Assembly: GCA_002069125.1 (NCBI GenBank)
Contig: MVZN01000014.1
Coordinates: 1 to 58,138 of the forward strand
From: Spirochaetes bacterium ADurb.BinA120
Lineage (GTDB): Bacteria; Spirochaetota; UBA4802; UBA5368
Direction of reading: 5' to 3'
DNA length: 58,138 nt
The notes below the pieces were generated by a model that made no database searches, was not told where the DNA came from, and worked only from the letters and a program-made list of their open reading frames with translations. Below, one piece after another: positions 12,673 through 44,426 of the stretch. The position numbers and the translations under genes were made by a program. The number at the start of each line of letters is the position of its first letter. Within the stretch, counting starts at the first letter, position 1.

Positions 12673-12681
12673 ATAAAAAAA

Positions 12682-14775: not shown

Positions 14776-14777
14776 TT

Positions 14778-14805: not shown

Positions 14806-14820
14806 TTATAAGGGGATAAC

Positions 14821-16577: not shown

Positions 16578-16648
16578 GGCTCTTTTTCGTTTGAAATAAT
16601 TTCCTATTAACGCCTGCAAAAAATTTTATTATATAATCAAAATTATAT

Positions 16649-16676
16649 TTTAAAATCGTTAATTTTATGTTATAAT
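16649..16676 (+). promoter_or_regulatory. Possible promoter before pilC
   Basis: A perfect TATAAT at 16671-16676 lies 16 bases after a weak -35-like TTTAAA (16649-16654) in a very AT-rich 117-nt spacer. It is 18 nt before the pilC ATG, so the leader would be short. The AT-rich background makes chance matches likely. Confidence 0.35.
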
Positions 16677-16694
16677 ACAGGCGGTGATTCAAAT

Positions 16695-17909: not shown

Positions 17910-17934
17910 AACAGCCGCCGAATGGAGAATTTAA

Positions 17935-19299: not shown

Positions 19300-19330
19300 A
19301 AAAGTAATCGCAGCCGGTCTTAACAATTTT

Positions 19331-21988: not shown

Positions 21989-22015
21989 CGGATAATATCC
22001 TTTTTATTATAAATC

Positions 22016-22044
22016 TTGACTTTTTAAGATAATTTTGATAGCAT
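22016..22044 (+). promoter_or_regulatory. Sigma-70-like promoter before HEAT gene
   Basis: TTGACT at 22016-22021 and TAGCAT at 22039-22044 are separated by 17 bases. The start codon of the HEAT gene follows 26 nt after the -10 box. Confidence 0.5.
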
Positions 22045-22070
22045 TAATAAACTAAAACAAGGAGCGCAAG

Positions 22071-23483
22071 TTGGCTTCGGTTAACCTCACAAGGGAAGAA
22101 ATAATAAACAATCTCAACTCCGGCGACGGCGCCGTCAGAAATAACGCCATCGTCGCAGCGGGTGAGATGTGCGATAACGAGATTAACCAGATGATCGAAA
22201 AGCTCTGTAACGCTTCAGATCCGGCCACACGCTATTTCGCGAAAAAAACGCTTAAAAAAATAAAAGATTCGCAGCAAAAAACCGAAACTGAAACCGGCAT
22301 CGCGCCTTCAGTATCCGGTTTCAATTTTGAAACCATTAAAACGCTTTTATCGAGCCCCCTGCCGGAAAACCGTCAGAGAGCCATGAAAGCGCTTACGGTA
22401 AATTTCAATCCGGCGGTCCTTCCGCTGCTGATTGAAATGCTAAAAAACGAAAAAGACCCTTTCGTTATAGCGAGCCTTGTAAAGCTGGCCGGAAAATACG
22501 GCGGAACCGAAATGGTAGAGCCGATAAGCGCCTTTTTAAATCACGATGATCCGCGCGTAAGGGCAAACGCTATCGAAGGCCTCGAATTCATAGGCACTGA
22601 AAAAATTATACCTTACATAGTGCCTTTTATTAACGACGTTGACAACCGAATAAAAGCGAACGCGGTTAAAGCCATATCCAGATTCAAATCAGACGAAATG
22701 ATCGAAGTTCTGGGTTCGATGATAAAGTCCGAGCAGCTATGGATGCGCGACTCCGCGATATTCGCCCTTCAGCAGATCGGAAGCGACCAGGCGGTAGATT
22801 TGCTGTGCCTGGCGGCTCGCGACATCGAAAAAAGCATATCCAACAACGCTTTGCAGGCGCTTGTAAGAATAGGATCGGTTTACGCGCTGAAAAAAGTAGA
22901 CGAACTCAGAAATTTGCAAAAAGAAAAAACGGCGGCGCCTATTATCAAAAAGATAATAAATTCTAACGAATCCGCTTCTGAAACGAAACCGGCGGAAGTC
23001 CAGACCGCTGAATTAAAAGCTGATGAAACCAAAAGCGAAAAAATCGCGCGAGAAACGCCCCGGCCCCAGGAAGCCGAAAACCGCCAGCCGTCTCACGGCG
23101 CCGAAACGAACGAAGTCCGAAACGCCGTAAAAAACCAGAAAAACGACGGCGCCTTTGAAAAATTAAAGGCAAATATCTCAAAAAAAGAAACGGCGCTAAT
23201 AAATATAATTAAAGAAGAAGACAGCGCCATTATGGCTAATTTTAAAATAGACCTGGACGATAACTTCACCAGTTACGTCAACGATATACAGTACGTGCCG
23301 CTGGCGCCGGCGCAGATTTCGGAAAAAAAGAAGCCCGCCGCCGAAAAACTTGAAGAAGACATAATGGCCGGGGCCGTAATAAAAACCGGAAGCGCTGAAA
23401 ACGCCGCAAAGCTAAGTAACGAAGCAAAAAAGAAGCTTCTTCTCGACAGCCTTAACAAACCGAAGGGCAAAACTAAAAAGTAA
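22071..23483 (+). CDS. HEAT-repeat protein, paralogue of the preceding one
   Basis: This protein has 470 residues and no signal or membrane segment. Residues 1-300 are HEAT repeats (VRANAIEGLEFIG, IKANAVKAISRFK, MRDSAIFALQQIG). Then comes a Glu/Lys/Ala-rich, probably disordered linker (about 300-370), and a C-terminal segment with no recognised domain. The start is a TTG with AAGGAG seven bases upstream; a TTG start is also used by thiT in this genome. Residues about 125-190 align closely with the HEAT part of the upstream gene, indicating tandem duplication followed by loss of the TM-TPR half or gain of it by the other copy. Function unknown; a cytoplasmic binding scaffold is likely. Confidence 0.8.
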   Translation: MASVNLTREEIINNLNSGDGAVRNNAIVAAGEMCDNEINQMIEKLCNASDPATRYFAKKTLKKIKDSQQKTETETGIAPSVSGFNFETIKTLLSSPLPENRQRAMKALTVNFNPAVLPLLIEMLKNEKDPFVIASLVKLAGKYGGTEMVEPISAFLNHDDPRVRANAIEGLEFIGTEKIIPYIVPFINDVDNRIKANAVKAISRFKSDEMIEVLGSMIKSEQLWMRDSAIFALQQIGSDQAVDLLCLAARDIEKSISNNALQALVRIGSVYALKKVDELRNLQKEKTAAPIIKKIINSNESASETKPAEVQTAELKADETKSEKIARETPRPQEAENRQPSHGAETNEVRNAVKNQKNDGAFEKLKANISKKETALINIIKEEDSAIMANFKIDLDDNFTSYVNDIQYVPLAPAQISEKKKPAAEKLEEDIMAGAVIKTGSAENAAKLSNEAKKKLLLDSLNKPKGKTKK

Positions 23484-23553
23484 AGCGGCGTGCCTTTCAT
23501 AAACGGAAAATTTATAAACAAACAAATAAAAAAATAAACGGAGGGTTTTAAAA

Positions 23554-24114
23554 ATGATAATCGACGCATCACAATTAAGAAAGGGAAACATTTTTAAAAT
23601 GAACAACGAGCTTTTCATGGTCGTAGCGTTTCAGCACCTGACACCCGGCAACTGGCGCGCCATGATGCAGACTAAAAACAAAAATTTACGCACCGGCTCC
23701 ATAGCGGAAAACCGCTTCAGGGCCCATGACAAAGTCGAAGTAATCGACCTCGAGCATAAAACCATGGAATATCTATATCAAAGCGACGAAGAATACCATT
23801 TCATGGACACGCAAAGCTACGAACAGGTAGTGCTTACCGAAAAAGACCTGGGCGACGCCATGCTTTATATGGTGCCGAACTCTCAATGCCAGATACAATA
23901 TTACGAAAATAAACCCATCGGCATAATTCTTCCGATAACGGTCGATCTTAAAGTCGAATACACCGAGCCCGGCGTAAAGGGCAATACCGTTTCCGGCGCC
24001 ACCAAAGTCGCGCGCATGGAAACGGGCCTTGAAATACAGGTGCCGCTTTTCATTAATCAGGACGAAGTCTTAAGAATAGACACGCGTACCGGCGAATATA
24101 TCGAAAGAGTATAA
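23554..24114 (+). CDS. efp: Translation elongation factor P
   Basis: This 186-residue protein has the three beta-barrel domains of EF-P, which relieves ribosome stalling at polyproline. The late signature of the family (PITVDLKVEYTEPGVKGNT) is intact. In the loop that reaches the peptidyl-transferase centre the sequence is TPGNWRA (residues 30-36). The residue that is Lys34 in E. coli, or Arg32 in the rhamnosylated type, is Asn33 here. The usual EpmA/EpmB or EarP modification would therefore not fit. The start ATG has GGAGG upstream. The neighbouring Pro-rich lipoprotein linkers are plausible clients. Confidence 0.93.
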   Translation: MIIDASQLRKGNIFKMNNELFMVVAFQHLTPGNWRAMMQTKNKNLRTGSIAENRFRAHDKVEVIDLEHKTMEYLYQSDEEYHFMDTQSYEQVVLTEKDLGDAMLYMVPNSQCQIQYYENKPIGIILPITVDLKVEYTEPGVKGNTVSGATKVARMETGLEIQVPLFINQDEVLRIDTRTGEYIERV

Positions 24115-24134
24115 GTTTTAATAAAAAACTTATA
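24110..24134. repeat. AT-rich perfect inverted repeat at the efp stop
   Basis: A 10-bp perfect stem (24110-24119 and 24125-24134) with a five-base loop overlaps the efp stop codon. It contains only two G-C pairs and no T tract follows directly on the plus strand, so termination is doubtful. Confidence 0.4.
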
Positions 24135-24186
24135 AAAAAATCAATACATATTTATTTTTTTACGAGCGCGCTTTATTTTTTTAATA

Positions 24187-26250
24187 ATGCGCGCTTTAAA
24201 AAAACGGGGGGACGACAGGTTGAAATTCGCTCAAGCAGGTTTTTTATTATTGCTTTTATGCCTTCCTTTGATGGTATATTACTTCAAGTTGATATTAAAA
24301 CTGGCTTTGAAACGGCGTGAAAAAATTTTTTCGAGCCGTAATTACTCCGCGCTTTCAAACTACCGGACTCAACCGAATTTAATGATTAAAATTACTCTTT
24401 ACCTCTCCGCCATGGCCCTGGTGTCCTTCGCCGCAGCCCGGCCGCAGGGCCTTGAAAAACCCGAAGAAATCGAAGCCAGCTCCATCGACATTTGCTTCGC
24501 TATAGACGTTTCAGAATCGATGAAGGCCCGCGATCTCGGGCGCGACAACCGCCTCGACATAACCCGCGCCGTAGTTACCCACCTCATAGATAATTTAAAA
24601 AGCGACCGGGTGGCGTTAGTCACCTTCGCCGGCGAAGCGAGCTGCATCTGCCCGCTCACTCTCGATCACGCTTCCGCCAAATCGCTTTTAATGCAGGCCG
24701 ACTTCGATCTGATAGAAAAAGGCGGGACCAGGCTCGAACTCGCCATCAAAACCGCCGTCGAACGCTTCAACAAAGACGATGAAGCCGCAAAAGTAGTGGT
24801 GATATTTACGGACGGCGAAGACCACGACGGCAGGCCCGTAGAAGCCGCGCGCGAAGCTTATAAAAACGGCGCGATCATACACTGCGTGGGAATAGGCTCC
24901 AAAAGCGGAGTAAAGATACCGGTTTCGCAGGACATATGGGGCGCGCCCGTCTATAAGAAATTTAACGGAAAAGACGTAGTGACCCGCCTTAACGAGCAAG
25001 TGCTCGTCGATATAGCAGCGGCCGCCGGCGGAGAATATTTTCACGTTTCCGACCAGAACAGCCTGGTTAAAATGATTTCCGGGCTGAAGAATATCAAAAA
25101 ACGAGCGCTCAGAGTATCCAGTTTCAATGTCCGCGAAGAGCTTTTCGCTTATTTTGCCGCGCTCGCGCTCATCTTCATTATCATAGACTCGATGATCCCT
25201 CAAAGAAGCCGTAAAAACGCCGGCATTATTCTATTTCTTCTTGCGGCTGTTTCCGTCGCTTCGTCTGCCGGGGCCGCCCGCGCAGAAATACAACAGGCCC
25301 CGCCTCCGCTTGCGGCCGAATACGATTCGCTGACGCCAAAAATATCGGCCCACTCGCAAAAAGGCAAAGAATTATACGACGCCGGCAAGTTCGGCGCCGC
25401 AGAATCCGAATTTCAGAGCGCGAAAATATTAAAGCCTTTCGATATCGCCGCCAATTACAATATCGGCTGCGCCAGGTATAAAAACCGCGATTATAAAGGC
25501 GCGATAGAAGCTTATGGCGAAGCCTTGAAAGCCGGCGGCGCAAAGAGCCGTTTCGAGCCTTTTTATAACATGGGAAACTCTCATTTCAAACTTCAGGATT
25601 ACGGCAAGGCCATAGAAAGTTATGAGCAGGCCCTCAAAATAAAACCGGACGACGCCGACACGCTTCACAACCTGGAGCTGGCTAAAAAGAAATTGGAACA
25701 GCAAGCCCAAAAAGATCAGCAGAACAAGCAAGATCAAAATCAGGGAAAAGACGGCGATAAAAACGGGCAGGGCGATAAAAAAGAAGGGGACGAAAATAAC
25801 TCCCAGAAAGGCGAAAACCAAAAAGACGGTAACGCCGGAGAAGAAAAAAAACAGGATGGTAAACAGGAAAATAACGGCGGACAAAAAGAGCAAAAAGCCG
25901 GCGAGTCCGGCTCTGAAAACGCCGAAAAGAAAGACGCGTCATCGGGCGGCGAAGGCAAAGACGGAAAAGAAGCCGTAAAAGACCTCGTAGATAAGCAAAA
26001 TGTAGAAAAATACAAAAACATCCAGGTAGATCCAAACAGGCTGAAGCTTTTTTTAAAGGACCTCGAAAACGACGAAGCCCGCGTACAGTATTTATATCAG
26101 CAAAACAAAAAAAGAATGAATAAAGCGGACGAGATGGACCCGTTCAATATGACGCCTGAACAGTTAAGACGGCAGATGCTTTTCGGCGAAGAACCCGATC
26201 CGGGCGAAAACAAAAAGCAAAAATCCGGCGGCGATAAAAAAGATTGGTAA
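24187..26250 (+). CDS. BatB/BatC-like VWA-domain protein fused to TPR and charged tail
   Basis: This protein has 687 residues. Two hydrophobic helices (about 15-38 and 60-78) precede a von Willebrand A domain (about 97-290) with a complete MIDAS: DVSES at 107-111, the GGTRLE Thr and FTDGED. Another hydrophobic pair (about 318-360) leads to two or three TPRs (about 390-510). A low-complexity Lys/Gln/Glu/Asn/Gly stretch follows (about 512-605), then a short ordered tail. This is BatB plus BatC of the aerotolerance (Bat) operon in one chain; MoxR, BatA and BatD are not next to it. The first ATG at 24187 has no SD. A TTG at 24220 follows a GGGGGGA run and may be the real start. Confidence 0.8.
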   Translation: MRALKKRGDDRLKFAQAGFLLLLLCLPLMVYYFKLILKLALKRREKIFSSRNYSALSNYRTQPNLMIKITLYLSAMALVSFAAARPQGLEKPEEIEASSIDICFAIDVSESMKARDLGRDNRLDITRAVVTHLIDNLKSDRVALVTFAGEASCICPLTLDHASAKSLLMQADFDLIEKGGTRLELAIKTAVERFNKDDEAAKVVVIFTDGEDHDGRPVEAAREAYKNGAIIHCVGIGSKSGVKIPVSQDIWGAPVYKKFNGKDVVTRLNEQVLVDIAAAAGGEYFHVSDQNSLVKMISGLKNIKKRALRVSSFNVREELFAYFAALALIFIIIDSMIPQRSRKNAGIILFLLAAVSVASSAGAARAEIQQAPPPLAAEYDSLTPKISAHSQKGKELYDAGKFGAAESEFQSAKILKPFDIAANYNIGCARYKNRDYKGAIEAYGEALKAGGAKSRFEPFYNMGNSHFKLQDYGKAIESYEQALKIKPDDADTLHNLELAKKKLEQQAQKDQQNKQDQNQGKDGDKNGQGDKKEGDENNSQKGENQKDGNAGEEKKQDGKQENNGGQKEQKAGESGSENAEKKDASSGGEGKDGKEAVKDLVDKQNVEKYKNIQVDPNRLKLFLKDLENDEARVQYLYQQNKKRMNKADEMDPFNMTPEQLRRQMLFGEEPDPGENKKQKSGGDKKDW

Positions 26251-26278
26251 TATAATAATAAAAAAAAGACACAAACAC

Positions 26279-26307
26279 TTGACAACAGCAAATATTTAAA
26301 GTATTAT
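26279..26307 (+). promoter_or_regulatory. Strong sigma-70-like promoter before STAS gene
   Basis: A perfect TTGACA at 26279-26284, a 17-base spacer and TATTAT at 26302-26307. The GTG start lies 39 nt downstream with AGCGGGGA between. It probably drives the STAS and pseudopilin operon. Confidence 0.65.
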
Positions 26308-26346
26308 GGTTATGCGTTCAATAAGCTAAAAAAGCGGGGAAATATC

Positions 26347-26808
26347 GTGGATAATAACAAAGATCCAAAAAGCCAGCATTCAAAACTTGGATCGTTTTCT
26401 ATAGAAACCGGCGTAGAAACGCTCACGCGCACGCTGCCCGGCGATAAAACCAATATCACGGAAAGCAAAGGCACCGAACAGGCCGGAGTGGTGACATTAA
26501 AAGTTTTCGGCACCATAGACCTGCTCACTTCGTCCGAATTTCAAAAGCACGCCATGGATTTTATTTCAAAAGGCTATAAATATATTTTTCTAGACTTTAC
26601 AAAGCTTGATTTTATAGATTCCATGGGCTTATCTACCGTACTGATGATATATCAAAAAATCTTCGAAGCGGGCGGCTCGCTTTCAATAATCAACCCGAAA
26701 CCCTCGATCATGGTAGTTTTAAAAATAACGAAAGTCAACCAGAAGATATTGGTTTTCAACACTATAGACGAAGCGAAAGCGTTCATTACACATGGAGAAA
26801 ATAAATAA
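26347..26808 (+). CDS. STAS-domain protein (anti-sigma factor antagonist-like)
   Basis: This protein has 153 residues. About 50 N-terminal residues are Ser/Thr-rich and unassigned. Residues about 52-150 form a STAS domain with the conserved phosphorylation motif DSMGL (Asp91, Ser92). In SpoIIAA/RsbV-type proteins this serine is phosphorylated by an anti-sigma kinase and dephosphorylated by a PP2C phosphatase; neither partner is visible here. The start is GTG with GGGGA upstream and a strong promoter before it. The 3' end overlaps the next gene by 17 nt, tying it to the pseudopilin operon, so it may set expression or assembly of the pilins. Confidence 0.85.
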   Translation: MDNNKDPKSQHSKLGSFSIETGVETLTRTLPGDKTNITESKGTEQAGVVTLKVFGTIDLLTSSEFQKHAMDFISKGYKYIFLDFTKLDFIDSMGLSTVLMIYQKIFEAGGSLSIINPKPSIMVVLKITKVNQKILVFNTIDEAKAFITHGENK

Positions 26809-27550
26809 AGATTTCAGCCTTAACAAAATAAAAAGAGCCAAATGCGCCTTTACGGTAACCGAAGTGCTTATCGCGGCAGCCATAATGTCCATGCTGCTCG
26901 GAGTTTTTTATCAGCTTTTCATCGCCGGTCATAAAAATTTTAACGCAGGCGTGTGGATGGCTAATCTCACTCAGGAAATAAACGTCGGGTTCCGCCAGTT
27001 TCAGGAAGATATCAAAAACACCGCCGTTATGGTGTCCACGGTTCCCGGCAATTACTATAAAACCAACGTCAAGCCCGAGCCCAACCACAATCCGGCATTC
27101 GATTTCTACTATAATTCCAAACTCTTATCGCCGGACGGCGCTCAACCGGGCGATAAGCTCATGCGCTTCAAAATGTGCAGAAGGCCGCAAAAAAAAGGCT
27201 TCGAAACCAAACTCGACAATCAGCCCGCTTTAATCGAAGAAGCCGAATTCAGCTTAAACGAAAAGGGCGAGCTTTTTTACGAAAAGAAATCGGCTTTATG
27301 GGACGGCGATCCGAAAAGCGTTCCGACTTTAAATCCTCCGGCCGACAAACTCGTCAACAGCCGCGTTTTAATACACGACGTCACTAACATCAGGTTCGTG
27401 CCTCAAAAAAATGCTACAAAAATTGAAAAAGGAAAAATGTTCGGAATAGAAATCACGGTAGCGCCCCCTAAAAATCAGGGACGCAACGTTAAGCCCCTTG
27501 TAAAAACAACCCAGGTGGTAATAAACGTAGAACCCAACGAAAGCCTTTGA
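26792..27550 (+). CDS. Minor pseudopilin-like protein (GspJ/PilW type)
   Basis: This 252-residue protein has a basic leader of about 20 residues followed by a type III (prepilin) signal: CAFTVTEVLIAAAIM, with the +5 Glu of the mature helix. The residue before the cleavage site is Ala instead of the usual Gly. The rest is a globular domain of about 200 residues with no known motif. Size and position (followed by two more pilin-like genes) resemble the GspJ/PilW minor pilin that primes pilus assembly. The ATG overlaps the STAS gene by 17 nt in another frame, so it is translationally coupled. Confidence 0.72.
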   Translation: MEKINKDFSLNKIKRAKCAFTVTEVLIAAAIMSMLLGVFYQLFIAGHKNFNAGVWMANLTQEINVGFRQFQEDIKNTAVMVSTVPGNYYKTNVKPEPNHNPAFDFYYNSKLLSPDGAQPGDKLMRFKMCRRPQKKGFETKLDNQPALIEEAEFSLNEKGELFYEKKSALWDGDPKSVPTLNPPADKLVNSRVLIHDVTNIRFVPQKNATKIEKGKMFGIEITVAPPKNQGRNVKPLVKTTQVVINVEPNESL

Positions 27551-27556
27551 TAAGGC

Positions 27557-28219
27557 ATGATAATCATTATGAAGCATAACCCTCGCAGGTCAAATATTAA
27601 ACGCATATTTTTCAATCGAAAAGCTATTTCGATTACCGAAATCATGGTCGGCATCGCTTTATTCGTTCTGGCCGCCATCCCTTCTTTCGGCTATCTCATG
27701 AGTTCGGTCAAGCAGACCGCGGCGACCGACATGGAAAACACCGCCGGGGTAATAGCCGGCAGCATACTGGACCGCATTTTAGACAACGTAGAATACGACC
27801 TGGTAGACGACACTCTCAAGCTCGACCAGATTTCCGGAATGACTGACGAAGACGGCAGCGACAATAATGAGCTTAAAATCAAATCCACTTCTTTCAAACT
27901 GGAACTCGAAGTTAAAACGATACCTAACGATCAAATAGAATTCGGCTTCAGAAAAACGCCCTACATAAAAAGGCAATCGTCCGACAGCGAAAACGCCGAT
28001 CCGGGAAACGACATAAACAGCATCAAAAACGACGCGAAACGCTGGAACACTCCCGTAAAACTCAAACTTTCACAGATAACCAAGCACAAAAACAAGACGT
28101 TCCTTAAAGAAATAATGCTCGTAATCAAATGGAAAGATCCCGTCAGCGGACGCGACAGGACCGAAAAATTCACGACCATGAAAGCTAATTTAAGCCTGGT
28201 CGAACAGCAGGGCGGTTAA
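27557..28219 (+). CDS. Minor pseudopilin-like protein (GspI/PilV type)
   Basis: This 220-residue protein has a basic leader (about 22 residues) and a prepilin-type helix AISITEIMVGIALFVLAAI. The +5 Glu is present and Ala occupies the -1 position, so cleavage would follow Ala. The remaining 170 residues are a polar globular domain. The overall shape fits a GspI/PilV minor pilin. There is an ATG at 27557 and another at 27569; neither has a strong SD, but the gene follows the previous stop by six bases and may use coupled re-initiation. Confidence 0.68.
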   Translation: MIIIMKHNPRRSNIKRIFFNRKAISITEIMVGIALFVLAAIPSFGYLMSSVKQTAATDMENTAGVIAGSILDRILDNVEYDLVDDTLKLDQISGMTDEDGSDNNELKIKSTSFKLELEVKTIPNDQIEFGFRKTPYIKRQSSDSENADPGNDINSIKNDAKRWNTPVKLKLSQITKHKNKTFLKEIMLVIKWKDPVSGRDRTEKFTTMKANLSLVEQQGG

Positions 28220-28222
28220 TTC

Positions 28223-28957
28223 ATGGATTTTTTCAGATGCCCTCAAAATAAATATAATTATAACCTAGCTGAATTAAAGCCAGCAAACAGGCGCGGCATG
28301 CTTATTCCAATGATCCTTATAGGCATGTTTATTTTCATAATGTTTTTTTTCACGCTCATGCGCTGGAACTCGTCAAACAGGCGCATGAATTATCAGGACG
28401 TATGGGGGCGCAAAGCGCTTTATCTCGCAAAAGGCGGCACGCAGCTGGCTCTTTTAAAAGTTTCGATGATGCCCACCGAATGTTACGATGCGCTCGCCAT
28501 ATCGCAGTTGAAAAACCCTTATTTTTCATTTAAAATCGCGGCCGAAAGGGTCGCCGCAGGCAAAAAGCCCGTAAACCCCAATCCCAAAGAAATCGACTTC
28601 AACCCCGGGCCTCAATATTTAACCGGCCCCGGAGATAACCGCGACGCGCTGCTTCAAGACCCGGCTTACGTGGGCACTAAAGAAGACCCGCTTTCGGGCG
28701 AGCTGAACGTATTTATAAAAGCGTTCACCGACGACATCAAGTTCGCCGGCCCCGATACCGATCCTATTACCGGCGAACGCACGGTCCCTTACAAACACGG
28801 TTTCGCTTCGACCAAAGTAAAGGTCCTCGCGGTCAAGGGGCAGCAGCTTTACAACAAGCAAACGGTAGAACTTACCGTTAAAGGCTGGGTTTACGACGGC
28901 ATGAATATAAAGCGTGAAAAAGAAGTCACAAAAATCGTAGAAGTCGAAAGGAAATAG
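28223..28957 (+). CDS. Minor pseudopilin-like protein (GspK/PilX type)
   Basis: This 244-residue protein has a leader of about 25 residues, then a long hydrophobic helix beginning RRGMLIPMILIGMFIF. It has Gly at -1 but no +5 Glu, as is common for GspK, which caps the pilus tip. The Lys/Pro/Asp-rich domain that follows has no clear homology. It follows the previous stop by three bases and precedes a secreted protein, so the three pilin-like genes and their partner form one block. The assignment is by order and topology. Confidence 0.62.
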   Translation: MDFFRCPQNKYNYNLAELKPANRRGMLIPMILIGMFIFIMFFFTLMRWNSSNRRMNYQDVWGRKALYLAKGGTQLALLKVSMMPTECYDALAISQLKNPYFSFKIAAERVAAGKKPVNPNPKEIDFNPGPQYLTGPGDNRDALLQDPAYVGTKEDPLSGELNVFIKAFTDDIKFAGPDTDPITGERTVPYKHGFASTKVKVLAVKGQQLYNKQTVELTVKGWVYDGMNIKREKEVTKIVEVERK

Positions 28958-28968
28958 CGGAATATAAA

Positions 28969-30035
28969 ATGAATAAAAAAAAAAACTTTTTAATCGCGGC
29001 GCTGATATGCCTTGCCATATCTCTTTTCGGACCGTTAACCACTAAGGCTTCAGCTCTGCCGGATCTTTCCACGCCGTTTACCCAGATATTCCCTCAAATT
29101 AAAATAAATAATTTATTCGACTCGAACGTCCCTATCCACCAGGGATTTTTATACACTTTCCAGTTCGCCAAAAACGATCTGGAGGCCGCGCTTACGGATT
29201 TATTGAGAAAAAAAGGGCGCGCGCTCAACATCGGAGAAGTAAACGACCTTCGCGCCCAGGTTATACGCGTAAATTCCGTCAAATGGATAATTTTGAATTT
29301 CGACGGCACAAAGGTAACGCTTCCCGACCAGATGCCCGAACTTGTAACAAATCAGGGCGCAGCAGGCGATATCGACACTTCTACGATGCGCTACGTTTTC
29401 GATACTCCCACCGACCCCATGGACGAATCGATGATTTTATGCGTCGTAGATTACGAATGGAACGCCTTTTTCGGCGCCGCGCCCCTGGGCGGCTGGCCCA
29501 AAACTCAGGAAGCGTGGGGAAAATTCGCTTTCACTATCGTCGACAGCGAGCCTCCGCATAACGCTCAGATATCGCCGAAATCAATTTATTCGACCTGCGG
29601 CGACAAAATCTCGGCTTTTAACGATATAATAAAAAAAGAAAATCTCGCCTCGAAATATCCGGCGAACGCCGATGACATAGTTATTACGGTAATCGACGAC
29701 AACCCTTTTGGAATAATAGACCACTCAAAGCTAAAGCATAATTTAAAAAACGTCGACGGATACGTCATGGTCGAAACATATACCGAAAAATACAGGCAAT
29801 ACGATTATAATAATCCGCCGAAGCAACTTTTGGCGGACCCTTTCGAATTAGATTCCACCATTTACGAATATCTCGACGATACCGCGCCTAATAACGGCAA
29901 ATTTTCATACCTCGGCCCGTTTCAAATTTCAAAAATACCCGGCGTTTCGATAAAAAACGTAAAACTGGTCAATAAAGTCAACGCAAAAGACAACGTAGCA
30001 TACGTGATAAGCGTCCCGCTGGCGGGCCTCGAAGA
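28969..30035 (+). CDS. Secreted protein, 3' end cut by the junction
   Basis: A signal peptide (MNKKKNFLIAALICLAISLF...) with a small-residue site near residue 28 is followed by about 325 residues of mostly beta-type sequence without a recognised domain. It contains two segments with VTLP/DPMDES and NNPPKQ patterns. The apparent frame continues to 30438 but becomes Arg/Pro/Ala-rich and GC-rich after about 30030, which is foreign DNA read out of context. The native C-terminus is lost. It is the last gene of the pseudopilin block, so it may be a pilus-associated or exported component. The true end is not visible; 30035 is approximate. Confidence 0.6.
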
Positions 30036-30045
30036 CGGCTCGGGG
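30010..30045. other. Junction between two unrelated genomes (probable chimera)
   Basis: Base composition, codon use, gene orientation and taxonomic signal change at this point. To the left are moderate-GC plus-strand genes of a pilus-bearing bacterium. To the right are very GC-rich, planctomycete-like genes. One gene on each side is cut: the secreted protein on the plus strand and a gene on the minus strand that overlaps the HIT stop. No integrase, tRNA, IS or direct repeat is visible. The exact base cannot be set by eye. Confidence 0.85.
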
Positions 30046-30069
30046 CGGAATGTCGCCCGGCTCGCTCAT
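30019..30069 (-). pseudogene. Start of a gene truncated at the junction
   Basis: On the minus strand an ATG at 30069-30067 overlaps the HIT stop (ATGA). About 17 plausible residues follow (beginning MSEPGDIPPRAVFEAR) before the reading frame enters the other genome. ATGA overlap supports a real co-translated gene downstream of the HIT gene, of which only the first codons remain. Family unknown. Confidence 0.45.
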
Positions 30070-30635
30070 GGTCTGGGCCCGGCCTGCCCGCCGGTGCGGG
30101 CCAGCAGCAGGCCCAGATCGTCGGCGGCGCGGCGCATGGCGGCGAAGGTCTCCTGGATGGACTGGGGGATGACACGGACCTGGCCGAGGACGGCCATGAA
30201 GTTCGTATCGCCCGCCCAGCGGGGCACCACGTGGATGTGCAGGTGTCCGGGCAGGCCCGCGCCGGCGCATCGCCCGACGTTGAGCCCGATGTTGTACCCG
30301 TGGGCCTTGAGGGCCCGGTCCATGACCGCCTGGAGGTCGCGGACAGCCTGCATCATTTCCACCAGCGTGGCCGTCTCCAACTCGCCGAGCTGCCCCACGT
30401 GGTCCAGCGGGGCGACCATGGCATGCCCGCCGGTGTAGGGGAAGCGGTTGAGCACCACGAGGCTGCGTTCCAGCCGGGTCAGGACCAGGTTGTGCGGGTC
30501 CTGGTCGACTGGCGCCTCGCGGTAGCGGCAGAGGAAACAACCCTCCTCCTGGCCTCCCAGCGAATCGATGTACTCCATCCGCCAGGGGGCCCAGAGGTTG
30601 GTGTTGCGCTCGGCGCTTCGGTTGTCGGCGTCCAT
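30066..30635 (-). CDS. HIT-family nucleotide hydrolase/phosphorylase
   Basis: This 189-residue protein has the histidine triad HLHIHV (His131, His133, His135), where the middle residue set forms the AMP-binding active site. The N-terminal LWAPWRMEYI motif and a Cys33/Cys36 pair match the AP4A phosphorylase-like branch. Substrates in this branch are diadenosine polyphosphates or adenylated nucleotides. It lies downstream of an NHL-type lipoprotein, with 7 nt between, on the minus strand. The next gene starts inside its stop codon but is cut by the genome junction. Confidence 0.9.
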   Translation of the reverse strand: MDADNRSAERNTNLWAPWRMEYIDSLGGQEEGCFLCRYREAPVDQDPHNLVLTRLERSLVVLNRFPYTGGHAMVAPLDHVGQLGELETATLVEMMQAVRDLQAVMDRALKAHGYNIGLNVGRCAGAGLPGHLHIHVVPRWAGDTNFMAVLGQVRVIPQSIQETFAAMRRAADDLGLLLARTGGQAGPRP

Positions 30636-30642
30636 GGAGGGG

Positions 30643-31737
30643 CTACTTCTTGGGGATGATCGTCAGCGTGTACGGCTTGTCGAACGCGTTGCCCGCCAGG
30701 TTGAGGTCGATGTTGGCCACGTAGATCCAGTCGCCGCGGATGCAGACCTCGCTGCACTTGTCGAGCAGGCCGTTGGCGCCGTTGGTGTTGGGGTTCTGGG
30801 CCAGCGTGGTGACCTTGCCGGTCTTGGCGTCGACCTTGTGGACGGCGTTGCCCAGGAAGTCGGCGATGTAGACGTTGCCCTCGTCGTCGACCTTCAGCCC
30901 GTCGGTGGACTGCATGCCCTGCTTCTCGGCGAAGACCTTGCCCGCGCCGACCGGCGCGCCGTCCTTCATCTGGTACTTCAGGAGCTGGGCGTCGCCGAAG
31001 TTGCAGACGAACATGTTGCCGGCCTTGTCGAAGCCCAGGCCGTTGGCCCCGACGCCCCAGTCCTTGTTGACGGTCTTGAAGGTGGTGATCAGATGCTTGT
31101 CCTTGCCGCCCGGCGTGACCTGGACGGGCTTGTCCGCCTTCAGCTCGGACATCTTGAAGCGGTACACGCCGCTGACCACGGGCGAGGCCTTGGCGTCCAC
31201 CTGGGAATCGCAGACGTACACGCTGTCGCCGTTGCAGGCCAGGCCGTTGGCGAAGTTGATGCCGCAGGCCAGCACCTCGACCTTGGACGCCTTGCCTTCC
31301 GCCAGCACCACCCGCAGCACGCGCGACTTGTCGGGGCTTCCCTTGCGGGGCTCGCCCACGTTGGGCACCTCAAAGGCCTGGCAGTCGGCGATGTACAGGT
31401 TGCCGTCGGGCCCCTGGTCGATGCCCAGCGGGCAGACGCGGTTGGTCTCCGGGTGCACCGGCAGGGTGCAGACCTCGCTGACGAGGTTGTTGGCGTCGAT
31501 CTTGAGCAGCTTGGCCGGATAGGCGGGGTCGTTGAAGTTCGGCATGCACAGGTAGATGTTCCCGTCCTTGGCCAGCGTCATGCCGTCGGGCGTGTTGTAC
31601 TTGGCCGGCAGGGTGATGAAGGCGTGCCCGCCCACCGAGGCGGGAACCAGCCGGGCAACCTGCGGGCCGGACTGCTCACAGGCGGGCAGAATCAGGGCGA
31701 CCAGGACCAGCGACAGAATCAGTGAACGAGTCATCAT
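30643..31737 (-). CDS. NHL/SMP-30-type beta-propeller lipoprotein
   Basis: This 364-residue protein has a lipoprotein signal ending in LILPAC (Cys20). The rest repeats blades of the six-bladed propeller type, with Asn-Gly-Leu/Asp-Gly and DEGNVYIADF, PDGNLYIADC patterns (residues about 55-355). Such domains bind ligands or hydrolyse lactones; no clear SMP-30 catalytic residues can be confirmed. The start at 31737 is preferred over a longer ORF start at 31800 because GAAGGAGA lies just before it and a signal peptide follows. A promoter lies at 31789-31817. Confidence 0.78.
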   Translation of the reverse strand: MMTRSLILSLVLVALILPACEQSGPQVARLVPASVGGHAFITLPAKYNTPDGMTLAKDGNIYLCMPNFNDPAYPAKLLKIDANNLVSEVCTLPVHPETNRVCPLGIDQGPDGNLYIADCQAFEVPNVGEPRKGSPDKSRVLRVVLAEGKASKVEVLACGINFANGLACNGDSVYVCDSQVDAKASPVVSGVYRFKMSELKADKPVQVTPGGKDKHLITTFKTVNKDWGVGANGLGFDKAGNMFVCNFGDAQLLKYQMKDGAPVGAGKVFAEKQGMQSTDGLKVDDEGNVYIADFLGNAVHKVDAKTGKVTTLAQNPNTNGANGLLDKCSEVCIRGDWIYVANIDLNLAGNAFDKPYTLTIIPKK

Positions 31738-31788
31738 GTTCTCCTTCTCAAGACACAGGCAAAAGGTTCCGGTGATGAGCGGCCTGTA

Positions 31789-31817
31789 GTTGTACGCCAT
31801 CGGGAGGGGAAGATCAA
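31789..31817 (-). promoter_or_regulatory. Promoter for the NHL lipoprotein gene (minus strand)
   Basis: On the minus strand TTGATC (31817-31812), a 17-base spacer and TACAAC (31794-31789) precede the lipoprotein start by about 50 nt. The -10 box is imperfect. Confidence 0.4.
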
Positions 31818-31876
31818 GGTGGTAGCCGGCAGCCTGTGATCCGTTTGCGTCCTGGCTGCGGGCGACAGGCTACAGA

Positions 31877-32695
31877 CTACAACACGGGGGCGAGCAGCTC
31901 GCTGACGAACGCTCCGATCCTGGCAGCCAGTTCCGCGGGGGGCAGGTCCTTGTGCTGCTGAATTCGATGGACGATGGCCGAGCCTACGATCGCCCCGTCG
32001 GCGACGCGGCACACCTCGGCCACCGTGGCGGGATTGGACACGCCGAAGCCCACGCAGATGGGCAGGTCCACGTGCGTCCGCAGTTCCGCCACCGCCGCCA
32101 GCGTGGCCTCGCTCAGGCGGTCGCGCTCGCCGGTGATGCCGGCGATCGAGACGTAATAGACGAAGCCCGTCGAGTGGCGGGCGATCTCCAGCCGCCGGGG
32201 CGGCTGGGTGGTCGGGGCGATCAGCATGACGTTGGCCAGGCCCCTGGAGCGGGCGAGCTTCTCCACCTCGCCGGCCTCGTTCAGCGGCAGGTCGGGGATC
32301 AGCACCGCGTCCACGCCCGCCTGGCTGCACTGGTCCAGGAACCGCTGGACCCCGTGCCGGAAGACGATGGAGTAGCTCACCATGGCGGCCAGGCCCAGCT
32401 TGCCCCCGCCCTCGCGGTACTCGCGGACCATCTCCAGCACCTGGTCGGTCCGCTGGCCGCTCGCCAGCACCTCGGTGTACGAACTCTGGATGACCGGCCC
32501 GTCGGCGATGGGGTCGCTGAAGGGAATGCCCAACTCAGCCACCCGGACCCCGCGGGCCTCGAAATCCTCCAGCATCGCTCGCGTCCCAGCCAGGTCCGGA
32601 TACCCGGCCGTCAGGAACGGAACCAGCGTCTTCTTCCCGGCCGCTCGCAGCTCGGCGAAAGCCTGGACCAGCCGATTTGTCTTCAGATCATTCAT
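31877..32695 (-). CDS. trpA: Tryptophan synthase alpha chain
   Basis: TrpA cleaves indole-3-glycerol phosphate to indole and glyceraldehyde-3-phosphate; indole passes through a tunnel to TrpB. The 272-residue TIM barrel has the signature LGIPFSDPIADGP, with catalytic Glu54 and Asp65 (equivalent to Glu49 and Asp60 of Salmonella). A glycine-rich phosphate site lies near the C-terminus (VGFGVS). trpB is immediately upstream on the same strand, 33 nt away, so they are co-transcribed. Confidence 0.96.
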   Translation of the reverse strand: MNDLKTNRLVQAFAELRAAGKKTLVPFLTAGYPDLAGTRAMLEDFEARGVRVAELGIPFSDPIADGPVIQSSYTEVLASGQRTDQVLEMVREYREGGGKLGLAAMVSYSIVFRHGVQRFLDQCSQAGVDAVLIPDLPLNEAGEVEKLARSRGLANVMLIAPTTQPPRRLEIARHSTGFVYYVSIAGITGERDRLSEATLAAVAELRTHVDLPICVGFGVSNPATVAEVCRVADGAIVGSAIVHRIQQHKDLPPAELAARIGAFVSELLAPVL

Positions 32696-32728
32696 GTTCT
32701 TACAGGACCCATGCCCGGCTACCGGCTA

Positions 32729-33940
32729 CTAGATCTTCACGCCCTTGCGCTCCAGGATGGAGGCGATCTCGTTGCAGTCCTTGTCGCCTCGCCCGGAGAG
32801 GTTGACCAGCAGGATCTGGCCTTTCTTCATCTTGGGGGCCTGCTTGATCGCCTCGGCCACCGCGTGGGCCGACTCCAGGGCGGGGATGATCCCCTCGGCC
32901 CGGGAGAGCGTGACTACCGCGTCGATGGCTTCGTCGTCACCGCAGGTGGTATAGCCGACCCGCCCGATGTCCTTCCAGTAGGCCAGTTCGGGCCCCACGC
33001 CGGGGTAGTCCAGCCCGGCCGAGACGCTGTGCACGTCGGCGGTCTGTCCGTCGGCGTCCTGGAGGATGTAGCTGAGGCTGCCGTGGAGCACCCCGGGCCT
33101 GCCCAGCGAGAGCGAGGCGGCGTGGTCGCCCAGGTTCAGGCTCCGCCCGCCGGCCTCCACGCCGATCATGCGGACCGAGGCGTCGGCGATCATGGGGGCG
33201 AAGATGCCCGCGGCGTTGGACCCGCCGCCCACGCAGGCGACGATCAGGTCGGGCAGGCGCCCTTCGGCCGAGAGCATCTGCTTGCGGGCCTCGCGCCCGA
33301 TGCACGACTGGAACTCCCGCACCATGGCCGGGAAGGGATGAGGCCCCGCGACCGTGCCGATGATGTAATGCGTGTGCTCGACGCTGCCCATCCAGTCGCG
33401 CATGGCCTCGTTGAGGGCGTCCTTGAGCGTGCACTGGCCGCTCGAGACGCCGATGACGCGGGCCCCCATGAGCCTCATGCGGAAGACGTTGAGGCTCTGG
33501 CGGCGGATGTCTTCGGTGCCCATGTAGACGTCGCAGTCGAGCCCGAAGACGGCTGCCGCCATCGCGGTGGCCACCCCGTGCTGCCCGGCGCCGGTCTCGG
33601 CGATGACGCGCTTCTTTCCCATCCGCAGCGTCAGCAGGGCCTGGCCCAGCGTGTTGTTGATCTTGTGGGCCCCGGTGTGGTTCATGTCCTCGCGCTTGAG
33701 GTAGATCTTCGCTCCACCGAGCGCCTCGGTCAGGCGGCGGCAGAAGTACAGCTCGCTGGGCCGGCCGGCGATCTCGCGGTAGCAGCGGTCCAGATCGCCG
33801 CGGAAGCCCGGGTCGCCCATTGCCTTGTCGTACTCGGCAGAGAGCTGCTCCAGGGCGGCCATCAGGGTCTCGGGAACGTACTGTCCGCCATAGGGGCCGA
33901 AGTAGCCCGCGCGGGTCGCGTTGTCGGAGGCGGTAGTCAT
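32729..33940 (-). CDS. trpB: Tryptophan synthase beta chain
   Basis: TrpB is a PLP enzyme that joins indole and serine. The 403-residue protein has HTGAHKINN with PLP lysine Lys93, the phosphate-binding [10 protein letters not shown] segment, and the C-terminal LSGRGDKD. These are all standard for the TrpB1 class, which works with TrpA. It is preceded, 10 nt upstream, by an aminotransferase gene. Other trp genes are not in the window, so the rest of the pathway lies elsewhere. Confidence 0.97.
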
Positions 33941-33950
33941 GGTCGCGGCC

Positions 33951-35246
33951 TCATTGCAGGTACTCCCGGATGGCGTCGGCCAGGGCCTGGAAGGTCCACT
34001 TGCGCTTGGCGTCGTCGCACTCCAGCAGGGTGATGCGGAAGCCGTCCCGCTTGCAGCAGAAGCCGCTGAGGGGCACGACGCAGATGCCCTTGGAGCCCAT
34101 GAGGTAGTAGACGAAGCGGGAGTCGTTGGGCACGCCGGGGATGAGCCCTTCGACGATCTCGCGGGCCTTGGGGTTGTCGATGGGCAGGGTCTGGCGGTTG
34201 TTGAGCACGCCGTCCTCGAACATCACGGTAACGTAGAAAGCCCCGCTGGGCTTGTTCACCGTTACGCCCGGAATGCCGCTGAGGGCGTCGTAGGCTTCCT
34301 GGGCCCGGGCCTCGAAGGTCGCCGCCCTGTCCCGCAGGTGGGCCGGGTAGCGGCTGTCGCCGACCACCCGCGGAATGGACATCTGCGGCATGGTCGTCGA
34401 GCAGACCTCCAGGCGCTTGCTGGCCAGCAGCGAGTTGACGTACGTGCCGAACATGGGGTCCTTGTCGCGGTTGAGGACCTCGACCCAGCCGCACCGCGAC
34501 CCGGGCCAGGGGTATTCCTTGGAGATGCCCCGCATGGACAGCCCGCAGACGTCGCCGATCACCTCCGACAGGTGCAGCGTCTTGTTGCCGTTGTACACGA
34601 TGTGGGTGTAGATCTCGTCGCAGATCAGGATGCAGCGGAACTGGCGGGCGATCTCGACGATCTCCTCCAGCACCGGCCGGGGATACACCGCCCCGGTCGG
34701 GTTGTCGGGATTGATCAACAGGATGCCCGCGATCGAGTCGTTGTACTTGACCTTCATCCGGATGTCGTCCACGTCGGGCATCCAGTTGTTGTGCGGGTCC
34801 AGTTCGTACGTCAGGTGCTCATAGCCGCTGTGGGCGGCCTCGGCCGACGAGTGCGTCGAGTAGGCGGGGGTGGGCCCCAGCACGCGGGCCTCGCGCCGCA
34901 GGAAGCCGTACACCTTGGCCACCGCGTCGCCGATGCCGTTGAAGAAGATGATGTCGTCCGCGGTGATCTGCGTCCCGCCGCGGATGTTGACCTGTTCGGC
35001 CAGGAACTCCCGCGTCTCGGAGATGCCGGCTGTGTCGCAATAGCCCCAGGAGGTCTCCTGGTCGACGATCTCGTGAAGGATGTCGCGGATCCAGGGACGG
35101 ACCTTCTCGCCCTTCTGGATCGGGTCGCCGATGTTCTCCCAGGTCATCTCCACGCCCGCCTGACGCAGGCGATAGCCCACCTGGACAATCTCTCGAATGG
35201 CGTACGTCAACGACTTGGCGCCGCCATGCACAATATCGCGTCGCAT
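33951..35246 (-). CDS. PLP-dependent aminotransferase (class I/II)
   Basis: This 431-residue fold-type I aminotransferase has NPDNPTGA (Asn183 of the PLP ring stack), Asp210-x-x-Tyr213 and the Schiff-base lysine region [14 protein letters not shown] (Lys243, then Arg for substrate carboxylate). It is longer than AspC by an N-terminal extension of about 30 residues. Substrate is not clear; neighbours trpB and trpA suggest aromatic or alanine/aspartate transamination, but this is only context. The minus-strand start at 35246 has AAAGGT-type purines upstream. Confidence 0.88.
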
Positions 35247-35358
35247 CTTGCTACAACCTTTCCCTTCCGGCCATGTACCGGCAAACTGTCATTTGTACCG
35301 CGCGGGGCGGTATCGGCCAAGAATATATTCGGCACAACAGGGGGGCTGGAACCAGGGA
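35247..35358. other. Spacer before the palindrome
   Basis: This is the first part of a 334-base gene-free stretch between the divergent aminotransferase and metallophosphatase genes. It should hold the aminotransferase promoter, but no clear -10/-35 pair is seen. No RNA structure is recognised here. The rest of the gap is described under the next three entries. Confidence 0.5.
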
Positions 35359-35380
35359 ACCTGCCTGCCGGCAGGCAGGT
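35359..35380. repeat. Perfect 22-bp palindrome (CTGCCTGCCGGCAGGCAG core)
   Basis: The sequence ACCTGCCTGCC/GGCAGGCAGGT is a perfect inverted repeat without a loop. In translation it gives the Leu-Pro-Ala-Gly-Arg-Gln peptide often seen in metagenomic contigs, which marks a dispersed palindromic repeat. It may be a REP-like element. Confidence 0.8.
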
Positions 35381-35395
35381 GGGGACCGGACAACA

Positions 35396-35493
35396 GGGAC
35401 TAGGGACCAGGGTGCAGGGACTAGGGACTAGGGAGCAGGGACCAGGGAAAAGGGACGAAGGAAGAGGGACAGGGGACGGGAGCGAGGGAACAG
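35396..35493. repeat. Degenerate heptamer repeat array (AGGGACY-like)
   Basis: About a dozen copies of a purine-rich unit near AGGGACT/AGGGACC follow each other for about 100 bases, with scattered substitutions and unit-length variation. It is G-rich on the plus strand, so it may form unusual structures, and it is too degenerate for a CRISPR array (no spacers). Confidence 0.75.
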
Positions 35494-35523
35494 GTGACCA
35501 GGAGATAGAGGGGTGGCGGCATG

Positions 35524-35557
35524 GTCACTTCAGTGACCCATGTCTTTCTGGTATAGT
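35524..35557 (+). promoter_or_regulatory. Possible promoter with operator dyad before the phosphatase gene
   Basis: GTCACT-TC-AGTGAC (35524-35537) is a perfect dyad, and TATAGT at 35552-35557 could be a -10 box, placing the dyad over the -35 region. The gene starts 23 nt later. This resembles a repressor operator but no regulator is known. Confidence 0.4.
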
Positions 35558-35580
35558 CCACGGTGACAACGGAGAGTTCA

Positions 35581-36687
35581 ATGACGATGCGTAGTCGGTT
35601 ACGGGCCCGGACAGGTGGACTGGTCTTTGCTCTTGTCTGCTCGGCGGTCTGCGCCGCCTCCGCGGCGCCCGCCTCGCGCCCGGGCGGACACGCGCCCAGC
35701 GACAAGGCCGTCCGCGTGACCTTCCTGCACATCAACGACACCCATGGGCAGATCGAGAGCTATGAAGGGCGAGGAGGCTACGCCCGGCTGGCGACGGCCG
35801 TGGAAGAGGCCCGCCGCCTGGACCGCTCTGCCGGGGTCGCCCGTACGTTCCTGGTGGACTGCGGCGACATCCTCAGCCGCGGCGACGAGCTGACCCGCCG
35901 CACGCTGGGCTCGGCCAACTTCGAGCTGATGAACCTGCTGGGCTTCGACGCCTACGTGCCGGGCAACGGCGACTATTACGACGGTCTGGTCGTCCTTCGC
36001 GCCCGCATGCGCCAGGCCCGGTTCCCCACGCTGACCTCCAACGTCACCTTCGGGCCCAAGGTCCCCCCCGCGCAGGACTCCAAAGCCCACGGAAAGCCTT
36101 CCGTGGGCATTAGCGGAGAGGCGCCCGGGGAAAAAGCCCACCCTTCAGAGGTGGGCTTTGACGGCCGGGCCGTGCTGGGCAAGGAGTACCTCATCGAGCG
36201 GGCCGGGCCCGTGCGGATCGCCCTGCTGGGCCTGTGCACCGTCCGCGAGCCGGAGCGGCTGATGGGCGTCGAGGACGGCGTCGCCAGCGTGAAGCGGTTG
36301 GCGCCGGCCCTCCGCGAGCAGGCCGACGCGGTGGTGGTGCTCTCGCACCTGGGGCTGCGCCGGGATTTCGAACTGGCGACCTCCGTCGGCGGGATCGGGG
36401 TCATCCTCGGCGGCCACACGCACGCCACGCTGCCTCAGGGCATCACCATGCCCGCCCCGGGCGGCGGGAGGGTGCTGCTGGCCCAGGCGGGCGAGCAGCT
36501 CAACTTTCTCGGACGGGTGGACCTGGTCTTCGAACCCGCGGCCGAAGGCTACAGGCTCGCCTCGGCCAAGGCCAGCCTCATCGAGTTGGGCCCCAAGCTC
36601 CGCGAGGACCCGCAGGTAAAGGCCAAGATCGCCCGTCTTTCCGGCCTGGGCGCCACCCGGCCCGCGCTCCAGCCGGCGGGGCAGTAG
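35581..36687 (+). CDS. Secreted calcineurin-like metallophosphatase (5'-nucleotidase type)
   Basis: This 368-residue protein has a signal peptide (hydrophobic to about residue 30), then the metal motifs Asp53/His55 (HINDTHG), Asp96 (DCGDILSRGDE), SHLGLRRD and GGHTH. The usual GNH[DE] motif reads GNGD (129-131), so the His that normally acts beside Asn is Gly. Only the metallophosphatase domain is present; the C-terminal substrate domain of UshA-type 5'-nucleotidases is missing. An Ala/Gly/Glu-rich insertion at about 168-193 is encoded by two stem-loops. The start ATG is chosen for the upstream GGAG; an ATG at 35563 is also in frame. Activity is uncertain. Confidence 0.78.
   Translation: MTMRSRLRARTGGLVFALVCSAVCAASAAPASRPGGHAPSDKAVRVTFLHINDTHGQIESYEGRGGYARLATAVEEARRLDRSAGVARTFLVDCGDILSRGDELTRRTLGSANFELMNLLGFDAYVPGNGDYYDGLVVLRARMRQARFPTLTSNVTFGPKVPPAQDSKAHGKPSVGISGEAPGEKAHPSEVGFDGRAVLGKEYLIERAGPVRIALLGLCTVREPERLMGVEDGVASVKRLAPALREQADAVVVLSHLGLRRDFELATSVGGIGVILGGHTHATLPQGITMPAPGGGRVLLAQAGEQLNFLGRVDLVFEPAAEGYRLASAKASLIELGPKLREDPQVKAKIARLSGLGATRPALQPAGQ
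36085..36159. repeat. Two in-frame stem-loops of GCCCAC type inside the phosphatase gene
   Basis: First: a 10-bp perfect stem with a four-base loop (36085-36108). Second: a 10-bp perfect stem with a seven-base loop (36133-36142 and 36150-36159). Both have AAAGCCCAC on the 5' side. The second stem matches the core of the terminator-like hairpin at 46741-46771. They fall in the reading frame without a stop and add a low-complexity loop to the protein, so they look like a mobile palindromic element inserted in the gene. Confidence 0.75.
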
Positions 36688-36720
36688 GGCCGCTCACGCG
36701 AGCGTCGCGACATGACCCCA

Positions 36721-36779
36721 GACCCTGCCCGGGCGGGCACACGACAGCCGCCCGGACAGGCCTTGAAAACCTCAGGGTC
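36721..36779. terminator. Hairpin between convergent genes
   Basis: An outer 7-bp stem (GACCCTG 36721-36727 with CAGGGTC 36773-36779) and an alternative long hairpin (36724-36760: 4 bp plus 8 bp with one mismatch) lie in the gap between the plus-strand phosphatase and the minus-strand cytochrome. There is no T tract, so a bidirectional terminator is possible but unproven. Confidence 0.4.
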
Positions 36780-36826
36780 ACTGGTGCTCTTGGAGGCGGG
36801 CGCCGGCCGCCGATCGGGCTGAATGA

Positions 36827-38242
36827 CTACAAGGCCCGCATGAAGGCGACCAAGGCCTGTTTCTCCTCCGCGGTCAGCTTGAGTTCCTGGATGAGGTTGA
36901 AGAACTCCACCGTGTCCTCGAGCGTCAGCAGCCTGCCGTCGTGCAGGTAGGGCGGGCTGTCCTTGATGCCCCTCAGGGGGAAGGTCTTGATGGGCCCGTC
37001 GGCCGACGCCATCCTCCCGTTGATCATCCTGGGCTTGTAGAACCGCTCGGTCCGCAGGTTGTGCATCAGGTTGTCGGTGTAGTAGGGGGCCGGGTGACAG
37101 GCGCCGCACTGGGCCTTGTTGAAGAACAGGTCCTGCCCCCGGAGTTCCTGCCTGCTGGCCTTTCTGGGGTCCAGCTTGCCCATGATGTTCAGCTTGGGCG
37201 CCGGCGGGAAGTCCATCAGGGCCATGAACTCGCTCATGAAATGGACTTGGCTGCCGCGGTCGAGGATGTTGATGCCCTTCTTGGCGGCGATGACGTGGTC
37301 GCCGTCGAAGTAGGCGGCCCGCTGCTCGAACTCGGTGAAGTCCTCGACGCTCTTAAGTCCGCGCTGCGATCCGAACAGCCGCTGGATATTCACCCCGCGA
37401 AGGGACGGGGTGTCCAGGCGATGGCGGAATTCCTGCGGGCGGATGTCGCCGACCAGGTGCGTGGTGGCGTTGGTGTGCCCGTTGACGTGGCAGTCGAAGC
37501 AGGTCACGCCCAGGCTGGGACGGGCCGACCGCCGGTCCTCGGTGGGGTTGAACTGCTGCTGGGGGAAGGGCGTCACCAACAGCCGCAGGCCCTCGATCTG
37601 CTTGGGATTGAGGATCCCGTTGAACAGCTCGTGGTAGTTGTCGCTGGTGATCACCTTGCCTTTGGACACGTCGCCCAGGTCCAGACGGGTGGTCAGGAAG
37701 ACGGCCGGCGGAAACTCCGGCAGCAGGTGATCCGGCAGGTCGAAGTCCAGGTCGAAGCGGGTCAGATCCCGACCGGTCTGTTTCTTGATCTCGTCGATGT
37801 GGGCCTGAGGGAAGACCATCCCGCCCTCGGGGTGGTTGGGGTGGGGCAGCGGGTAGAGCCCGGCCGGCCAGAGGCCCTTCTCGCGGACCTCCTCGGGCGA
37901 CAGGGCGGCCAGGTCGTCCCAGGTGACGCCGTCGGGCAGCTTGACGCGGACGCCCTCCTGGACGGGCTTGCCGCGGGACATGGCCGCCCCCTTGGCCGGG
38001 CGGTCGGCCAAGTCGTAGCGCTGGCGGAGCAGGTCCATGTGGATCTTCATGACCTGCTCCTTGGCCGTGGACATGCGGGCCATGGTCTTCTCGAACGGTT
38101 CCTTGCTGACCACCGGGGCGTAGCTGGATGGCGGGGCTTGGGCCGCGTCCTGGGCCCAGGCGGCCAAGGCGGTCAGCGCCACAGCGCCCAGCAGGACCAG
38201 CGGCCATCGCTTCGGTGCGAATGGACTGGGGGGTCGGCGCAT
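36827..38242 (-). CDS. Di-haem cytochrome c peroxidase/MauG-family protein
   Basis: This 471-residue protein has a signal peptide (to about residue 32) and two c-type haem motifs, CFDCH (248-252) and CGACH (379-383). The spacing of about 131 residues is like that of bacterial cytochrome c peroxidases. An N-terminal extension of about 200 residues before the first haem is much longer than in CcpA and has no clear domain. It is expected in the periplasm. The start at 38242 is preferred over an upstream ATG at 38335 because of GAAGGAGA and the following signal peptide. It is transcribed on the minus strand. Confidence 0.85.
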   Translation of the reverse strand: MRRPPSPFAPKRWPLVLLGAVALTALAAWAQDAAQAPPSSYAPVVSKEPFEKTMARMSTAKEQVMKIHMDLLRQRYDLADRPAKGAAMSRGKPVQEGVRVKLPDGVTWDDLAALSPEEVREKGLWPAGLYPLPHPNHPEGGMVFPQAHIDEIKKQTGRDLTRFDLDFDLPDHLLPEFPPAVFLTTRLDLGDVSKGKVITSDNYHELFNGILNPKQIEGLRLLVTPFPQQQFNPTEDRRSARPSLGVTCFDCHVNGHTNATTHLVGDIRPQEFRHRLDTPSLRGVNIQRLFGSQRGLKSVEDFTEFEQRAAYFDGDHVIAAKKGINILDRGSQVHFMSEFMALMDFPPAPKLNIMGKLDPRKASRQELRGQDLFFNKAQCGACHPAPYYTDNLMHNLRTERFYKPRMINGRMASADGPIKTFPLRGIKDSPPYLHDGRLLTLEDTVEFFNLIQELKLTAEEKQALVAFMRAL

Positions 38243-38400
38243 CGTGTTCTCCTTCTCGCGTGGGGATGAGGTATTGTTCGTCGAGGGCGCCGCGCCCTCG
38301 ACAGATAAGGATAGGCGAGCAAGGGGCTGATTCACACACGGCGATCACACACACGCGGAAATGTTCCCCGCGACCGCTTGGACGGCGTCTCGGGGCCCCG

Positions 38401-39447: not shown

Positions 39448-39543
39448 GGGACGTCCTTTCGATGTGGATAGACTGTACCTCCGGTCCCGGCCTACGGAAA
39501 GAGCCTACAGCCCATGCCGCGGGTTCTGTACAATGCAGGACAG

Positions 39544-43394: not shown

Positions 43395-43556
43395 CGTGCG
43401 CTCCCGGCGGGCCGGTCCGCCCGCCTGGGCGCCAGTCTAGCAAAAAAAACCGTGCATCGGGAAGCGATTACGGTATCTTTCTGTCAGCCGCGGAGGGGCA
43501 CCGGCCGCAAGGACGCGGGCCGGCCGACCGCGGGCTGGCTGCAGACAGGAGCGAGC

Positions 43557-44390: not shown

Positions 44391-44426
44391 AGCTCCCTCG
44401 GGTCGAGCGACCCGTGAGAGATGCGT

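Follow-up and report, generated by a model that had tools for sequence, protein, structure and literature searches.

How does a contig binned with a spirochaete come to be built of two halves that resemble neither each other nor their host? The window analysed here is the whole of contig C14 (58,138 bp), one of 216 contigs in a 3.51-Mb MAG that is 95.8% complete and 1.1% contaminated. An earlier note, made from the letters of the DNA, had read it as two unrelated genomes joined in the middle, with a chimeric assembly as the simplest account. We find that both halves are foreign to the binned organism and that C14 is almost certainly a metagenome misassembly that was then mis-binned, with no real gene transfer involved.

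The break and the gene that it cuts

The earlier note saw GC content, codon use, gene direction and taxonomic signal shift together, and they do. Within the window, GC stands at 0.457 over 28-30 kb but at 0.664 over 30-32 kb, with means of 46.5% for the left half and 68.3% for the right; GC3 steps from 0.56 to 0.92, genes switch from the plus to the minus strand at the join, and the lineage changes. In fact, the contrast in codon use and composition holds over the entire length of each half. Each side is also internally consistent, as had been claimed: in a check run on 5-kb pieces, tetranucleotide profiles correlate with their own half at r 0.94-0.98 and with the opposite half at 0.03-0.23, grouping perfectly by half, and the correlation between the two halves is 0.11. 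Two segments of unlike composition and lineage meet at a single point.

Where does this point lie? The maximum-likelihood GC change point falls at 30010 (2-lnL interval 30001-30017), within the 30010-30045 given by the earlier note and as sharp as it suggested, but left homology does not stop there: in the nucleotide alignments of 4/4 Wallbacteria-type relatives it ends at 30033/30034. The change point precedes this end by about 20 bp, since left homology closes with 20 GC-rich bases. Judged by these alignment ends, the break can be placed to within one or two bases. The four relatives were found by scanning species genomes with the gene cut by the join and are all of Wallbacteria type (records JAKPTH010000438.1, MGFH01000236.1, DIVV01000240.1 and MWBZ01000090.1; by name JPNA_metabat.86, Wallbacteria GWC2_49_35, UBA6123 and ADurb.Bin243).

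Genes are cut on both sides of the join, again as first noticed. On the left, a secreted-protein gene of about 685 codons breaks off after 355, where unrelated sequence takes over. The gene is full length in the three relatives that contain its start; the fourth contig (L041) begins inside it and holds only the 3' part. In 4/4 relatives it reads past the position of the join into sequence unlike the right half, and right-half proteins had no match in the Wallbacteria flanks. Left homology stops abruptly inside a gene that is intact in relatives. On the right, a minus-strand reading frame that starts at 30069, in ATGA overlap with the stop of the HIT gene, runs into the join.

The boundary itself is bare. 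Searches there for an integrase, repeats of note, a tRNA, an Rfam match or an N came back empty, in line with the earlier remark that transfer machinery and direct repeats are lacking, and no relative has the same insertion; the marks that a genomic island or a horizontal transfer tends to leave (an integrase, repeats or a tRNA at the flanks, a shared insertion) are missing. The junction has no match in plasmids, and its exact word does not occur in IMG/VR. A related genome with the same join would, by the reckoning of the earlier note, have spoken for real DNA; the join is absent from all genomes searched.

Table 1. Features of the window around the junction and in its two halves.
Feature	Coordinates	Strand	Basis and remarks
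Left segment, Candidatus Wallbacteria-type	1..30033	+	GC 0.465; homology over 10034-30033; 1-10033 from composition only
Left gene content			Type IV pilus/secretion cluster, hemW, miaA, hfq, HEAT-repeat proteins, efp, VWA/TPR protein
Secreted-protein gene, 5' 355 codons, cut by the join	28969..30033	+	685-686 aa in three relatives
GC-rich 20-mer TCCCGCTGGCGGGCCTCGAA	30014..30033	.	Candidate shared word that may underlie the join
Assembly junction (probable)	30033..30034	.	Alignment ends of four Wallbacteria-type relatives
Right segment, high-GC, planctomycete-like	30034..58138	.	GC 0.683, GC3 0.92; Pfam/NCBIfam matches; low identity to host phylum
HIT-domain protein, first complete gene right of the join	30066..30635	-	PF01230, E 7e-14
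Right gene content			HIT, SGL, trpA, trpB, aminotransferase, cytochrome-like, DUF4838, DUF1570, thymidylate-synthase-like, malic enzyme, Memo, pgsA-like, ribBA, large HAF-repeat/Big_9 surface protein

Provenance of the two halves

The left half is 91% and 96% identical to its two nearest Wallbacteria-type genomes. The 20 kb left of the join (10034-30033) are covered, piecewise, at 87-91% identity by G393, the genome of JAKPTH010000438.1, and are collinear with the single contigs G394:C236 (from the GWC2_49_35 genome, which holds record MGFH01000236.1) and G395:C229. Genomes of this type that match the left genes measure 3.7-5.0 Mb. Nucleotide-level agreement of this kind, collinear and with a genome named as Wallbacteria, points to Candidatus Wallbacteria as the source of the left segment. 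The housekeeping genes first listed for it are there: miaA and efp are recovered by profile and an hfq-like ORF (10463-10741) by eye. In Candidatus Wallbacteria GWC2_49_35 (MGFH01000236.1) and JPNA_metabat.86 (JAKPTH010000438.1), gene order and sequence agree with the left half as far as 30033; there both genomes continue with the intact gene and then their own sequence, whereas the window carries the right half instead.

On the right, the best match of the HIT protein among 393 host-phylum genomes reaches 46% identity, and TrpB is 58% identical to that of a congener of the host. Of the housekeeping genes that had been assigned to this side, ribBA and the pgsA-like gene are found by profile, as is the malic enzyme, and trpA and trpB are in its gene list. 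The composition and domain content suggest a planctomycete-like chromosome; Planctomycetota is a candidate phylum, which we treat as a lead, not a result. The HAF-repeat and Ig-like surface protein contains ELEPRLLLA near its N-terminus, and the LEPR-XLL model gives it 12 bits (E 0.13), below the 17-bit cut-off. DUF1570 was considered as a planctomycete marker and dropped as not specific, being present in 6 others of 198 host-phylum genomes and in one control. Naming the half through plasmids was likewise abandoned: these returned only weak HAF-repeat matches from many phyla. Viral contigs gave nothing for the right half, and no right-half relative turned up in the collections searched, in particular none that reads leftward through the join.

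Two right-half proteins may be described in their own right. The surface protein (50943-58136, plus strand) is open-ended, at least 2398 aa long and cut by the contig end. The protein with a thymidylate-synthase fold (43560-44387, plus strand; PF00303, E 4e-18) is possibly divergent.

The spirochaete bin and its own genes

FlaA, the flagellar sheath protein, is an established spirochaete marker. It is present in 20/20 genomes of the MAG's group vs 0/14 control genomes, which identifies the binned organism as a member of Spirochaetota. Over 36 sampled pieces of host contigs, 698 kb in all, GC is 57.5% (sd 1.8), and C14, averaged over its two halves, comes close to it at 57.1%. Averaging acts on tetranucleotides too: against the host mean, the left half correlates at 0.54, the right half at 0.74 and the entire contig at 0.87, with host pieces at 0.93-0.99. 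The first 20 kb of host contig C1, kept outside that set, stand at 0.886, a value near that of C14 as a whole. They looked odd in composition, but the part from 7.7 to 20 kb matches congeners at 71-84%, and the stretch belongs to the host.

The window copies of efp, miaA and ribBA duplicate copies that the bin already has, and they diverge from the bin's relatives. Host efp (C1) is 91% identical to that of a congener and 42% to the window copy, and host ribBA (C40) 92-95% to congeners and 59% to the window copy; a host miaA fragment at a contig end (C53) is 73-84% identical to congeners and 48% to the window copy. The only trpB1 of the MAG lies on C14, which could be taken to mean that the right half is host-derived. 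We rejected this reading: the gene is 58% identical to congeners, and host contig C69 is collinear with the trp region of a congener but stops about 0.8 kb before the trp genes. Thus, a host trpB1 is missing elsewhere because the trp region falls in the assembly gap where C69 ends.

How the contig may have arisen

To explain these results, we propose that a contig of a Wallbacteria-type genome was fused at 30033/30034 to a contig from an unrelated, GC-rich, planctomycete-like chromosome, the most likely link being a short GC-rich word of about 20 nt that both shared in the k-mer graph. The candidate word, TCCCGCTGGCGGGCCTCGAA, is 75% GC, a value equalled by only 3.9% of left 20-mers; it is identical in L041, hence native to the left lineage. 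The minus-strand reading from the ATG at 30069 keeps the codon preference of the right lineage down to about 30015. The word fits both the left lineage and right codon use, so a shared stretch of about 20 bases could have made the join. Such a word would be enough for a false path in a small-k graph, and k-mer graphs can hold paths that match no real sequence (Jorg paper, PMC8172020). We regard both the right breakpoint and the shared word as tentative. The chimera would then have been binned with a spirochaete from the same sample whose mean composition it matched; plausibly, the averaged composition explains the mis-binning. Three firm findings underpin the whole account: left homology ends at an exact position, each half is foreign to the bin, and housekeeping genes of the bin are present in duplicate. 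It is also the reading that the earlier note preferred, and it is upheld by the relatives, since the cut gene runs on in 4/4 of them and their flanks contain no right-half matches.

Misassembly and mis-binning are expected computational sources of error in MAGs; misassemblies are relatively rare compared with mis-binning, which counts against our account (PMC8201837). The chimeric contigs described for GUNC (PMC8201837) and Jorg (PMC8172020) are similar in that fragments of different organisms were joined and binned with a third, and, like them, C14 barely affects the marker-gene estimate of contamination. It differs in that distant lineages, not near-identical strains, contribute about 30 kb each and neither half comes from the binned organism.

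Could the join instead be real? It would then record a recent and very large transfer, in which a Wallbacteria-type genome gained 28 kb or more of planctomycete-like chromosome inside a coding gene, or the reverse, and only the binning would be wrong. The contig is indeed continuous, without Ns, and illegitimate recombination requires no repeat. Yet the boundary lacks an integrase, a tRNA, repeats or any other signature of transfer, and in 4/4 relatives the gene is intact with no right-half homologues nearby. The cargo, moreover, would be ordinary housekeeping chromosome of fully unadjusted composition that extends to the contig end. We therefore regard this course of events as very unlikely, and the claim that the join is real DNA, left by a transfer of housekeeping genes on a chromosome scale between the Wallbacteria-type bacterium and the planctomycete-like one, as extremely unlikely.

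That the spirochaete acquired both halves, by two inter-phylum transfers side by side, gains some appeal from the high completeness and low contamination of the MAG and from an assembly with no other trpB1. However, the latter is accounted for by the gap in the host trp region, the host already owns an efp, a miaA and a ribBA, and 58 kb hold no host DNA, with halves that depart from host composition in opposite directions; the chance of such a double event is vanishingly small. We give just as little credence to a single genome whose GC changes strongly within it, be it through an island or a compositional domain. Genomic islands also show sharp boundaries, but here the two halves contrast in codon use and composition from end to end, the left genes are 87-91% identical to those of Wallbacteria-type genomes of several megabases in which no right-half counterpart is adjacent, and the cut gene continues in all four relatives.

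Read as a misassembly, C14 is biologically unimportant but a useful warning about MAG contigs: two foreign genomes on one contig entered a MAG of 95.8/1.1 quality, plausibly since their averaged composition equals that of the host. The contig gives the spirochaete false assignments of trpA, trpB and other genes and could pass for an inter-phylum transfer. It should be split at 30033 and taken out of the bin.

The host contigs also contain dispersed repeats. One of about 170 bp on C1 (L002:141-320), absent from the window and with no Rfam match, has copies 83-88% identical on other host contigs and many copies in congener G003. Short hairpin-like repeats of the type CTCACCCCCTCTCCC...GGAGAGGGGG are also dispersed across host contigs (L097:13854-13983; C1, C27, C136 and others of G000).
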